From the NCBI GenBank assembly GCA_017469945.1, contig JAFUFI010000011.1, positions 1 through 62,491 on the forward strand: a DNA stretch of 62,491 bases, in the 5' to 3' direction. The notes below the pieces were generated by a model that saw nothing but the letters and a program-made list of their open reading frames with translations, did no database searches and had not been told where the DNA came from. Positions 58,212-62,491 of the stretch are shown one piece after another; within the stretch, counting starts at the first letter, position 1; each line of letters starts with the position of its first letter. The stretch is from Lachnospiraceae bacterium (GTDB lineage Bacteria > Bacillota > Clostridia > Lachnospirales > Lachnospiraceae). The position numbers and the translations under genes are program-made.

Positions 58212-59336
58212 ATGCAAAAGAAACTTGGCTTTGGAACAATGCGTCTGCCCTTGCTTAATCCCGATGACGCCGCAAGTATAGATATCGAGCAGTTTAAAAA
58301 GATGGTTGATGTTTTCCTTGATAAAGGATTTACCTACTTTGATACCGCCTACCCCTACCATCAGGAAAAGTCAGAAGACGCGGTTTGGCGCGCTCTCGTT
58401 TCAAGATATCCGAGAAAGCGATTTATCCTTGCCGACAAGATGCCCATCCTTCGCGTTACTGCCCCCGGAGATTACCGGGTATTTTTTGAGGAGCAGCTAA
58501 GGCGCTGCGGAGTAGATTATTTTGATTATTATCTTCTCCACAATTTAGGACGCGACCGCTATATCAATACTCAAAAATTTGGCGGCTTTGAATTTATTTC
58601 AAAAATGAAGGAAAAGGGATATGTCAAAAATATCGGTTTTTCTTTTCATGACGATGCCGAGACTCTTGACCGGATCCTGACGGACCACCCGGAGGTTGAT
58701 TTTGTGCAGCTTCAGATAAATTACCTCGATTGGGACGGAGCTGTGGCACAGTCCGGAAAATGCTATAACGTCGCTACAAAACACGGAAAAGAAATTATGG
58801 TCATGGAGCCTGTTAAGGGCGGAACCTTGGCGAATCTTCCCGCTCCGGCAAAGGCTGTATTTGACGGCTACTACGCTAAAAAGAGATTAAAATCGCCCTC
58901 TCCCGCTTCCCTTGCTATAAGATATGCCGCCTCTTTAAGTAACGTAAAACACGTTTTGAGCGGTATGAGTAACTTGGATCAGCTCCTTGACAACACATCC
59001 TATATGACGGATTTTGTTCCTCTTGATGATGGCGAGAAAAGGCTTGTCGAAGATATAACATCGGAATTAAAAAGATCAATAAAAGTACCCTGTACGGGTT
59101 GCAGATACTGCCTTGAAGAATGCCCTATAAGCGTCAATATCCCCGATTATTTCGGGCTTTTAAACTTACACGCCGTTACCGGAAACAAGACAGGTATGTA
59201 CTACCAGCGCTTTAAAATGAACCACGCTACGGCTTCTGAGTGCCTTAAATGCGGAAAATGCGAGCGAATCTGCCCTCAGCATATCGCTATAAGAGAATAC
59301 CTCGAGGAGTTCGCCGCTTTGTACGAAACTGACTAA
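58212..59336 (+). CDS. Aldo/keto reductase with C-terminal ferredoxin domain
   Basis: A 374-residue oxidoreductase. Residues 1-265 are the aldo/keto reductase barrel, with FDTAYPYHQEKSED (Asp, Tyr of the active site), the Lys in LADKMPI and YYLLHNLG (His). Residues 285-345 hold two [4Fe-4S] motifs, CTGCRYCLEECPISVN and CLKCGKCERICPQHIA. Such fused proteins are common in anaerobes and probably pass electrons from ferredoxin. The substrate is unknown. AAAGGAG precedes the start. A hairpin repeat begins directly after the stop codon. Confidence 0.93.
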   Translation: MQKKLGFGTMRLPLLNPDDAASIDIEQFKKMVDVFLDKGFTYFDTAYPYHQEKSEDAVWRALVSRYPRKRFILADKMPILRVTAPGDYRVFFEEQLRRCGVDYFDYYLLHNLGRDRYINTQKFGGFEFISKMKEKGYVKNIGFSFHDDAETLDRILTDHPEVDFVQLQINYLDWDGAVAQSGKCYNVATKHGKEIMVMEPVKGGTLANLPAPAKAVFDGYYAKKRLKSPSPASLAIRYAASLSNVKHVLSGMSNLDQLLDNTSYMTDFVPLDDGEKRLVEDITSELKRSIKVPCTGCRYCLEECPISVNIPDYFGLLNLHAVTGNKTGMYYQRFKMNHATASECLKCGKCERICPQHIAIREYLEEFAALYETD

Positions 59337-59413
59337 AATGACACAGGGGGACGGGGTTGGGGGTTCATTTTCTTATCAAAAATGAACCCCCAACCCCGTC
59401 CCCCTGTGTCATT
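59337..59413. repeat. Perfect long hairpin repeat (REP-like)
   Basis: Two perfect 35-bp arms (59337-59371 and 59379-59413) beginning AATGACACAGGGGGACGGGG with a seven-base loop CTTATCA. Its right arm reappears at window position 1. This looks like a dispersed palindromic element of the kind mobilised by REP-associated Y1 transposases; no transposase is in the window. Confidence 0.85.
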
Positions 59414-59420
59414 ACATCAA

Positions 59421-59465
59421 ACAAAAACGGGGGCCGTCGCACTAATTGATTAGTGCGACGACCCC
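59421..59465 (-). terminator. Terminator of the phase-variable lipoprotein operon
   Basis: A 16-bp stem with one mismatch (core GTCGCACTAA with TTAGTGCGAC) and loop TCAA on the minus strand, followed by GTTTTTGTTT. It lies about 90 bases after the lipoprotein stop. Confidence 0.8.
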
Positions 59466-59557
59466 TCTCAACTTAAAAGCAGACTTTAAAAAAAAGTCAA
59501 ATCACCGTTCACTGGCGCTGTAAAACCATAAACCCTTGTTATGAGAAATCCTAATAT

Positions 59558-60952
59558 CTATAAAATCATTCTCCAATCATCTAGTTCACTAGGTACTCCT
59601 TTACTATCATGAGTAGGAGTATATCCAAAATCTAAGTAACGTCGTCCTCCATAATAATTTGGTACATCTGGTCCACCAACATAAATGTGAAAACTCATTT
59701 CGTCCATAAGCATGCTCTGTCGTTGTCCTTGCACTTTTATGTCAATGGCGCTAAGGCGTATATAAACATCCGAACCAATGGGATTTCCTTCCGAATCACG
59801 TTGACCCATAAATACCGAATCCTTATATAAAAGGGTATTCACATGTAACTTTTCTTCATCATTTGCCCCTATATACAAAATGGGATTACGTAGAGTATCA
59901 TAAGTAGCACCAAAGCCTTTACCAACCGGTACCGGTATATCACTTAATTCTATTGATGGTCCTGAAGATCTGGCATTCCATCCATTGACCGCATTTCCCC
60001 CAAAAGTAAAACCACCATCTTCACTTGAAAAAATACACTCAAACCCAAGTATGACATTATCGTCATAACCCCATGCATCATAATTACCATTCCAACTATC
60101 TGTTACAGTGTAATCAATACCGTTCATCAATTCTTCCAGTTTCTTTTCCGGCATAAAGCAACTGTATTTCAATGTAACCATTGCGGTCGCAGGTCCATCA
60201 AATGCTCTTTGTGCAACTAAGTTTCCAAAAAACATATGCAGGGAAGCACTCTGCGGAATCCGACCTGTTTCGTCCCAAGAATCAACATGAATAGCTCCCG
60301 AAGATTTGGTTCCATCTCGAAAATAATCCGTTGTTCTGGGCGAATCATTCTCTTCGACAATTTCCTCAAGAAATTTAAAATATGGATTATCTGACCACGG
60401 CTTTGCATTTTCAAGGAGTAGATAGCCAGCTTCCGGTCCATCTGCTATATATACTGTAACCGTGCTTCCCGCTTTTATTTCGATGACTTTTTTTTCAGGC
60501 CAAATTTTTGATTTTGTTTTCACCGTTTTTGTAATAACAGAATAATCCAAATCCTCACCAAAGTGACCATCCCAGTATTTCTGTCTTAAAGCAATGCGAC
60601 TCCCTCTTTTATCAGTATATTCCAGCGAGCATATTTCGCCCATGGCGTACCCATTTGTTTTCCTATACTCTTTGGTAAAAGTCAGCTCAGGATACTCGGA
60701 ATTCATTTTCTCAATCCATTTATCAATTGGGTATTCATCCGGACGATACTCACCATATTGAGGACAATCCCGATCCATCTCGCTAGTATCCCAAAGATTA
60801 TACCCTTTCGGTAACCACTCATATATTGTCGGTTCGCTGTATGAACTGCCAACCACAAATTTTATAGTTTTTCCACCACAACCGCCAAGACAAATAATGG
60901 AAAACATTGATATCAACGATGTAACAATAAATTTCTTAAAAACGCCCTTCAT
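59558..60952 (-). CDS. Lipoprotein of unknown function
   Basis: A 464-residue secreted lipoprotein. The signal peptide ends in the lipobox LGGC (Cys25, SMFSIICLGGCGGK). The body is aromatic-rich, with no family I recognise; it contains FGGNAVNGWNARSSGPSIELSD and a glycine/tyrosine-rich end (YVGGPDVPNYYGGRRYLDFGY). It uses more A/T-rich codons than the block to the left, which fits recent transfer. It is second in a two-gene operon whose promoter has a G tract between -35 and -10, so surface expression may be phase-variable. AAGGA lies upstream of the ATG. Confidence 0.8.
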   Translation of the reverse strand: MKGVFKKFIVTSLISMFSIICLGGCGGKTIKFVVGSSYSEPTIYEWLPKGYNLWDTSEMDRDCPQYGEYRPDEYPIDKWIEKMNSEYPELTFTKEYRKTNGYAMGEICSLEYTDKRGSRIALRQKYWDGHFGEDLDYSVITKTVKTKSKIWPEKKVIEIKAGSTVTVYIADGPEAGYLLLENAKPWSDNPYFKFLEEIVEENDSPRTTDYFRDGTKSSGAIHVDSWDETGRIPQSASLHMFFGNLVAQRAFDGPATAMVTLKYSCFMPEKKLEELMNGIDYTVTDSWNGNYDAWGYDDNVILGFECIFSSEDGGFTFGGNAVNGWNARSSGPSIELSDIPVPVGKGFGATYDTLRNPILYIGANDEEKLHVNTLLYKDSVFMGQRDSEGNPIGSDVYIRLSAIDIKVQGQRQSMLMDEMSFHIYVGGPDVPNYYGGRRYLDFGYTPTHDSKGVPSELDDWRMIL

Positions 60953-61004
60953 ACCCGCTTACCTTATTCCTTTCATTCTTACCTACGTATCACAAATAGC
61001 ATTT

Positions 61005-61244
61005 TTAGTCTTTTTCATCTACCAATTCTGCAATTTTTTCTATGCCTGTAAAGAGTTTTCCTAATTCATCTCTTTTCATATATACACGATAACGTTCTCT
61101 ATCACTAAGTTCAAATGAAGTCTTGTCCGAAAAAACTTCTTTTATCAAAGATACATATCGATCTTCATTCGGAAAATCCACAAACGAATTGTAATTCTTC
61201 TCGATTGTCACTTTTGCACCTTTGTAATTAATATAATTTGTCAT
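61005..61244 (-). CDS. Small protein of unknown function, first gene of the phase-variable operon
   Basis: A 79-residue charged cytosolic protein (MTNYINYKGAKVTIEKNYNS... ending IEKIAELVDEKD) with a beta-hairpin-like start and a helical end. I do not recognise it. GGGAG lies nine bases before the ATG. It is 52 bases upstream of the lipoprotein gene and shares its promoter. It could be an immunity or partner protein of the lipoprotein, but this is only a guess from context. Confidence 0.6.
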   Translation of the reverse strand: MTNYINYKGAKVTIEKNYNSFVDFPNEDRYVSLIKEVFSDKTSFELSDRERYRVYMKRDELGKLFTGIEKIAELVDEKD

Positions 61245-61311
61245 ACGCTTCTTCTCCCTTAATAGTTTTGTTTAACAGTGAATCATAACTTTAATACCTA
61301 TTGTGCAACAA

Positions 61312-61339
61312 ATTATACCCCCCCCCCGCGAATTGTCAA
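61312..61339 (-). promoter_or_regulatory. Candidate phase-variable promoter with G10 spacer tract
   Basis: On the minus strand a perfect TTGACA (61334-61339) and a perfect TATAAT (61312-61317) are separated by 16 bases, ten of which are an unbroken G run (61318-61327) touching the -10. Changes in tract length would move the spacer to or from the optimal 17. The promoter points at the 79-residue gene and the lipoprotein gene. Confidence 0.75.
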
Positions 61340-61450
61340 TCAATTGTTCATGTTTAGTGATTTCCAGATGCATTTCAGATTAAAAACACAGGAGACTCTT
61401 CTTTTGTAATACTTTCCATCCTATTCTTAATGACAACATCAGCCATAAAC

Positions 61451-61495
61451 AACTTGTTTGTCCAAGTTGAACAAACAAGTTTTATTTGCTATAAT
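61451..61495 (+). promoter_or_regulatory. Promoter with overlapping inverted-repeat operator of the HTH-DUF3990 gene
   Basis: TTGAAC (61467-61472) and TATAAT (61490-61495) are 17 bases apart. A perfect 11-bp inverted repeat, AACTTGTTTGT (61451-61461) and ACAAACAAGTT (61471-61481), with a nine-base spacer overlaps the -35. It is a likely autoregulatory operator. Confidence 0.75.
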
Positions 61496-61517
61496 ATTTC
61501 TGAAGGAGTGCACAAAT

Positions 61518-62366
61518 ATGCTTAAAGTAGACCTTGATTATAGAATTAAAGATGACATTGAATTAATCCTTGAATCCGAGAGAATTAATAATAAAGAATT
61601 ATCAGAGAGGAGTAAAATCTCAAGAACCACTCTGGATGAAATAATAAAGAAGGGTAAAACAACATTATCTGTTTACGAAAAGTTTTACAGCTACATTTTC
61701 GAAAACAAATACAGAATTAATTCAGTTAAAGAAGAAATATTAAAAGAAAAATATAAGACGATTTTGTTTCACGGCTCTAAATATGGATTATCGGAAATAA
61801 ATACTGACGGATCCAGAGATAATTGTGATTTTGGCAAGGGCTTTTACCTTGGCGAGACTTACGAGAATGCACTTGCTTTTGTATGTGAAACCGATCGTTC
61901 ATCAGTTTACGCATTTAAGTATTCTCTATCCGGTCTAAAAGTAAAACAGTTCGATTGCTCCATGGAATGGATGTTGGCTATATGCCACTACCGCGGTACT
62001 CTCGGAGAATACAGTAAAACTCCCAAGGTAAAAAAGATTATTTCTGATATCGAAAAGTCAGATGTAATTATTGCGCCTATCGCCGATAATAAAATGTTTT
62101 ACATTATGGCTCAGTTCACTGAAGGTGAGATTAACGCCGATGTTGCTCTTCACTCGCTGTCCGCATCCAGGTTGGGCATGCAATACATCTTTAAGACAGA
62201 CAAAGCTTTAAAAAAACTGGTCCCAATAGAAAAGTATTACTTATGCACCAAGGAACGGGAAGAGTGTACAAGGAAGTTAAATGAACGCAGCTACGAAATA
62301 GACACTAAATTAAAGCTTGCAAAGAGAGAATTCAAGTCCGGTCTTTATATAGAGACTAACTATTAA
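61518..62366 (+). CDS. HTH-DUF3990 protein
   Basis: A 282-residue protein. Residues 12-50 look like an Xre-type helix-turn-helix (NNKELSERSKISRTTLDEIIKK). From about residue 75 the protein matches DUF3990: ILFHGSKYGLSEINTDGSRDN, then CDFGKGFYLGETYENALAFV. As far as I know DUF3990 belongs to the ADP-ribosyltransferase-like clan, so it may modify a target with ADP-ribose; the sequence alone does not prove activity. I start at the ATG ending at 61520, with GAAGGAG eight to nine bases upstream; the promoter at 61467-61495 excludes the longer frame. A perfect inverted repeat at its promoter suggests self-control. AT-rich codon use suggests recent arrival. Confidence 0.8.
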   Translation: MLKVDLDYRIKDDIELILESERINNKELSERSKISRTTLDEIIKKGKTTLSVYEKFYSYIFENKYRINSVKEEILKEKYKTILFHGSKYGLSEINTDGSRDNCDFGKGFYLGETYENALAFVCETDRSSVYAFKYSLSGLKVKQFDCSMEWMLAICHYRGTLGEYSKTPKVKKIISDIEKSDVIIAPIADNKMFYIMAQFTEGEINADVALHSLSASRLGMQYIFKTDKALKKLVPIEKYYLCTKEREECTRKLNERSYEIDTKLKLAKREFKSGLYIETNY

Positions 62367-62405
62367 AAGTCAATAGAAAAACAGCGATTTTTGAATAAAA
62401 CATAA

Positions 62406-62491
62406 TGAGATGTTTTAGATAGCCTGGAGGCAGGCTTAAGCCTCAATCAGTACCTTGAAAAATGCATGACAAACAGAGCATCTGAACAGGT
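62406..62491 (+). pseudogene. Possible remnant of a HicB-like antitoxin gene
   Basis: From about 62412 one frame reads DVLDSLEAGLSLNQYLEKCM up to the window edge, which resembles the C-terminal helix-rich end of HicB-type antitoxins (LEAG-SLNQY). A stop codon lies just upstream and no start codon or ribosome binding site is visible, so this looks like a decayed fragment. The window ends before the gene end can be judged. Confidence 0.3.

Follow-up and report, generated by a model that had tools for sequence, protein, structure and literature searches.

Poly-G promoter spacers upstream of genes for predicted exported proteins in Lachnospiraceae: a dispersed set of candidate slippage switches

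The locus

The window, meaning the whole stretch of 62,491 nucleotides analysed here, is one contig (C34) of a Lachnospiraceae assembly that totals 2.62 Mb over 37 contigs and is 94% complete. Its minus strand carries a predicted operon of two ORFs, of 79 and 464 residues, the second a predicted lipoprotein judging from its signal peptide and lipobox (Table 1); both ORFs match what a first-pass annotation of this DNA had described. Neither protein has a Pfam or NCBIfam match. The 79-residue protein has two relatives besides itself, at 53-54% identity. Searches with the 464-residue protein returned itself alone both among 97 genomes (its own included) and among 5.8 billion proteins, and no relative in genome_contigs, so the promoter comparisons below include no orthologue of the C34 promoter itself. 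A fold predicted for this protein without an alignment had a mean pLDDT of 33 and was unusable.

Upstream of the operon, direct reading of the sequence confirmed the earlier description of the promoter: on the minus strand (61339-61312, TTGACA-ATTCGC-G10-TATAAT) 16 bases separate -35 and -10 hexamers that are both perfect, and ten consecutive G touch the -10. The promoter thus has a homopolymer within its -35/-10 spacer, as porA-type promoters do. With 12/12 hexamer matches it ranks top of the 18 promoter-like sites found in a scan of 59300-62491, where no other site reaches 12/12; shuffles of this region gave a mean of 10.3 promoter-like sites versus the real 18. The tract is the single G run of at least 9 in the window, and dinucleotide-preserving shuffles of the window produced a mean of 0.13 G9 matches (largest 2). 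An intragenic frameshift tract was considered and dropped: the run lies outside any frame, with 73 bases between it and the ATG at 61244. An invertible promoter was dropped as well, there being no inverted repeats on both sides; the one repeat in 61240-61530 (at 61444-61488) is single-sided.

That repeat, 22 nt long and imperfect, lies beside the neighbouring gene on the plus strand (61518-62366), which is divergent from the operon, has an HTH-like start and carries a DUF3990 domain (E 3.3e-33). It overlaps the -35 of the divergent gene's own promoter-like site (61467-61495) and is perhaps an operator through which that gene controls itself; as the start of the gene, the ATG at 61518 seems preferable to the TTG at 61458. 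Just past the other end of the operon, the GACGGGGTTGGGGGTTCATTTT arms at 59350-59400 form a near-perfect palindrome. Similar sequence surrounds G7 runs on two other contigs of the same genome (C11 and C31), so that the palindrome is apparently part of a dispersed repeat.

Table 1. Features of the C34 promoter and operon, and the other tract promoters of the same assembly
Feature	Position	Strand	Basis
-35 hexamer, TTGACA	61334..61339	-	sequence, promoter scan
Spacer part, ATTCGC	61333-61328	-	sequence
G10 tract, proposed slippage site, flush against the -10	61318..61327	-	sequence
-10 hexamer, TATAAT	61312..61317	-	sequence, promoter scan
RBS-like AAGGGAG, upstream of the ATG at 61244	61254..61260	-	sequence
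79-residue ORF, first in the predicted operon	61005..61244	-	sequence
464-residue ORF, predicted lipoprotein (signal peptide, lipobox LGGC)	59558..60952	-	sequence
Terminator-like hairpin (16 pairs, T-rich tail), 3' of the lipoprotein ORF	59430..59465	-	sequence
C3 tract promoter; downstream, an ORF with a signal peptide that runs off the contig end			
C18 tract promoter; downstream, a 163-residue ORF, a lipoprotein of 298 residues and the beginning of another lipoprotein			
C19 tract promoter; downstream, a 585-residue lipoprotein with DUF6273			
C33 tract promoter; downstream, a 326-residue lipoprotein			

Five tract promoters in one assembly

The assembly as a whole holds five G runs of at least 9, and all five lie flush against a -10 of the form TANAAT (TATAAT, TAGAAT or TAAAAT) with a -35 of TTGACA or TTGACT upstream, at spacers of 15, 19, 19, 19 and 16. 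Runs of at least 8 G are at promoters in 5 of 8 cases, and the tract-promoter arrangement is absent from all 11 runs of 7-8 G. Each of the five tract promoters has downstream of it at least one gene whose product is predicted to be secreted or a lipoprotein, on the basis of signal peptides and lipoboxes read by eye. Two of the promoter regions, on C18 and C33, match at 96% across some 120 bases and both have G9; the C33 promoter is also 88% alike to a relative in another genome (G006), again with G9 in both. The other three lie in differing surroundings.

For four of the five (C3, C18, C33 and C34) the distance to a contig end is 1.0-1.8 kb, suggesting that the DNA beside them is repeated or variable. 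Behind the fifth, the gene that follows the C19 lipoprotein (L267:920-2740, minus strand) encodes a sigma-70-type N-terminal part fused to DUF6273, a domain that it has in common with the lipoprotein preceding it.

Occurrence in other genomes

The arrangement was counted in larger samples with the reversed pattern as control. Of 397 Lachnospiraceae genomes, 47 contained a pattern of TTGA, 10-17 bases, G6 and TANAAT, at 69 places altogether (control 4); in one other genus of the family (that of G128) 22 of 60 genomes contained it, at 39 places (control 2). A draw from the phylum (398 genomes, 393 of them outside the family) gave 34 places besides the assembly's own five, about twice its control of 15. 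Restricting the matches to those with at least G8 and TTGAC retained 50 of the 69 family places versus 3 of the 34 phylum places. The shorter pattern G8-TANNNT gave 56 places versus 18 for the reversed pattern across 97 genomes and 24 versus 2 within the 59 family genomes among them. Those 59 genomes contain 189 runs of at least 8 G, so most of these runs lie elsewhere. A scan of named genomes (TTGACA, 6-11 bases, G8, TATAAT) yielded at least 120 loci; among the matches listed, about 67 of 120 titles named Clostridia or Bacilli, and other titles named Spirochaetia, Saccharibacteria, Streptobacillus, Streptococcus and Helicobacter. The viral contigs searched gave one match.

Tract promoters are thus a class common in Lachnospiraceae, with five in this assembly. 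The first-pass annotation had remarked that few such promoters have been described in gut Clostridia. This fits the open-licence papers searched: judged by title and abstract opening, none of those listed dealt with promoters of this kind, or a set of them, in Lachnospiraceae. As regards genomes, the arrangement itself is common. Among the collected loci, three from one genome (G279; L279, L280 and L281) have an identical promoter string with an interrupted G run (GAGGGGGGG), and two of them are at contig ends; they probably belong to a mobile or repeated element.

Products of the downstream genes

The collected material comprised 201 tract promoters (at least 5/6 matches per hexamer and at least G6) from 306 loci. 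By a simple, rough export rule, which seems to err in some individual cases (L094 is one), the first ORF was export-like behind 126 of 177 tract promoters versus 5 of 45 ordinary promoters at the same loci (p 1e-13), the ORF rule having left out 24 of the 201 tract promoters and 21 ordinary ones. Stricter tracts gave export-like first ORFs in 50 of 82 cases versus 0 of 8 for ordinary promoters at the family loci (4 and 6 dropped), and in 83 of 112 versus 5 of 38 at the named-genome loci (17 and 17 dropped). In the C34 operon and in C18 the exported protein is encoded by a later ORF than the first and is therefore left uncounted.

Tract and spacer lengths

Homologous promoters differ in tract length in several instances, with lengths taken from assemblies, where homopolymers can be miscounted. 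L319 (G882) has G10 and L329 (G897) has G9 behind 75 identical upstream bases, their -10 hexamers differing too; L165 has G8 and L175 has G9, with flanks 92% alike. A single contig of a rabbit Bacilli MAG (L153, L228) bears three homologous promoters with G10, G9 and G8, the rest of the spacer being constant at 10 bases: read from the sequence, these form a natural length series. For close pairs, in which both flanks were at least 100 nt and 80% alike, the tract differed in 4 of 10 and was equal in 6, the rest of the spacer differed in 0 of 10, and flank indels amounted to 0.06 per 9 nt; the four differing pairs represent three independent homologous groups. With flanks of 50 nt the tract differed in 4 of 12 pairs versus 0.11 indels per 9 nt, with flanks of 30 nt in 4 of 16 versus 0.17, and in an earlier, hand-listed set in 7 of 15 versus 0.24. 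The excess of tract-length differences over flank indels is therefore clear only in close pairs and shrinks as the flanks are loosened.

Spacer lengths set these promoters apart from ordinary ones. Ordinary TTGACA-TATAAT promoters of the same genome have a spacer of 17 in 16 of 24 cases (the reversed pattern gave 3 matches, so a few of the 24 are chance matches). For 90 tract promoters with at least G8 and TTGAC, from loci outside the named-genome scan, spacers were 14 (3 promoters), 15 (2), 16 (10), 17 (10), 18 (15), 19 (40), 20 (9) and 21 (1); this distribution was not imposed by the collecting patterns, which admitted any spacer between 14 and 21. The difference at 17 (10 of 90 versus 16 of 24) has p 1.3e-7, a value that is too small because homologous promoters were counted separately. 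Within the collected loci, the corresponding figures are 16 of 35 for ordinary and 10 of 137 for tract promoters. The bias away from 17 raises a question with two candidate answers: most of these promoters, at the tract length assembled, may be weak or off, or the optimal spacing may be a different one when the spacer contains poly-G.

A candidate slippage switch and its alternatives

The reading favoured here, and one that we consider quite probable, is that the C34 G10 promoter is a slippage switch of the porA type, belonging to a dispersed set that serves exported proteins. The slippage mechanism itself is already known; at this locus we infer it from porA and tp0126. Replication slippage would add G to the tract or remove it, thereby changing the 16-base spacer, and depending on the new spacing the genes for the 79-residue protein and the predicted lipoprotein would be transcribed more or less strongly. 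By analogy with the same two promoters, strength would depend on tract length, and cells within a population would differ. If 17 is best here too, G11 should be high, G10 (as assembled) intermediate and G9 low, and across the five promoters of the assembly loss of G would favour the three with spacers of 19 and gain of G the other two. Three observations strengthen the first-pass suggestion that this lipoprotein operon may have a phase-variable promoter: the long G runs of the assembly, all five of them, hold the same promoter position with genes for predicted exported proteins downstream, the arrangement recurs in the family far above its control, and tract lengths differ among homologous promoters elsewhere. 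Counting against it, the related C18, C33 and G006 promoters all have G9, tracts are equal in 6 of the 10 close pairs, only 4 of 30 other members of the genus have G8-TANNNT, and the genome has MutS, which would restrain slippage. Loss of mismatch repair as the driver of slippage was dropped, MutS being present.

The tract might instead be a fixed structural part of the promoter, with polymerase or a regulator needing the shape of poly-G, an optimum near 18-19 and a length that seldom changes. Such a promoter would suit the predominance of 19 over 17 (40 and only 10 of the 90 spacers) and the equal tracts in 6 of the 10 close homologous pairs, but it fits poorly with spacers that range from 14 to 21, run lengths that span 6 to 13 among the tract promoters, and three homologous groups in which the tract alone differs. 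We know of no role in shape that requires ten identical bases, and regard this explanation as unlikely.

Less probable again is that a regulator or other control acts at the promoter, the tract merely tuning it, so that slippage alone would have little effect. Precedent comes from Treponema pallidum, where tprL tract length showed no clear in vivo correlation with expression, and where poly-G length and a CRP homologue have a joint effect on other tpr promoters (PMC7864442). At C34, however, both hexamers are perfect, so no activator seems needed, and within 61240-61530 no inverted repeat of at least 10 nt flanks or overlaps the promoter, the sole one being that at 61444-61488. Least credible of all is an artefact, whether through faulty assembly or because a single repeat that happens to include a G-run promoter is present in several copies: the likeness of the C18 and C33 regions and the nearness of four of the five tracts to contig ends speak for it, but the three promoters other than those of C18 and C33 lie in different surroundings, many genomes carry the arrangement, and the reversed-pattern control is near zero in the family.

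A wider form of the slippage-switch reading is put forward tentatively, with rather more reserve than confidence. Many Lachnospiraceae and uncultured gut Bacilli may possess a dispersed poly-G set by which exported proteins are switched singly, the promoters resting off the 17-base optimum (most commonly at 19) with their genes mostly off, and rare cells turning on when a tract becomes one or two G longer or shorter. Because offsets in a single genome can be opposite, some genes would require a gain and others a loss. A slippage-based set for exported proteins, the arrangement being present in about 1 in 8 of the 397 family genomes sampled, would amount to an overlooked source of cell-to-cell surface diversity.

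Relation to known systems

Promoter switching in gut Firmicutes is known mainly from DNA inversion; Bifidobacterium breve, a gut commensal with slipping G tracts, belongs to a different phylum. In gut bacteria and in Clostridioides difficile, invertible promoters switch expression by site-specific inversion (PMC11868660); they share promoter-level switching in gut bacteria with the system proposed here, whereas the C34 promoter has no inverted repeats flanking it within 61240-61530. In the gut commensal B. breve UCC2003, G-tract slippage affects surface pili (PMC9187656). The tracts studied there lie inside reading frames, and further G tracts within promoter spacers are no more than mentioned in the same paper.

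Two pathogens come closer in promoter architecture. The porA promoter of Neisseria meningitidis has poly-G between -35 and -10, as C34 does, and tracts of 11G, 10G and 9G give graded amounts of the surface protein (PMC3639595). There, a single gene of a Gram-negative pathogen is concerned and variation has been demonstrated; here, there are five such candidate promoters in one Lachnospiraceae assembly. In T. pallidum, a spacer of 17 is reported as best for tp0126, together with tprL tracts that vary in vivo, and tracts of at most 8 that permit transcription of tprE, G and J (PMC7864442). The likeness extends to number, poly-G being found in or near the promoters of several surface-protein genes per genome (PMC7864442); T. 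pallidum is a spirochaete, whereas the promoters described here occur in a Gram-positive lineage and have lipoproteins and secreted proteins as their predicted products.
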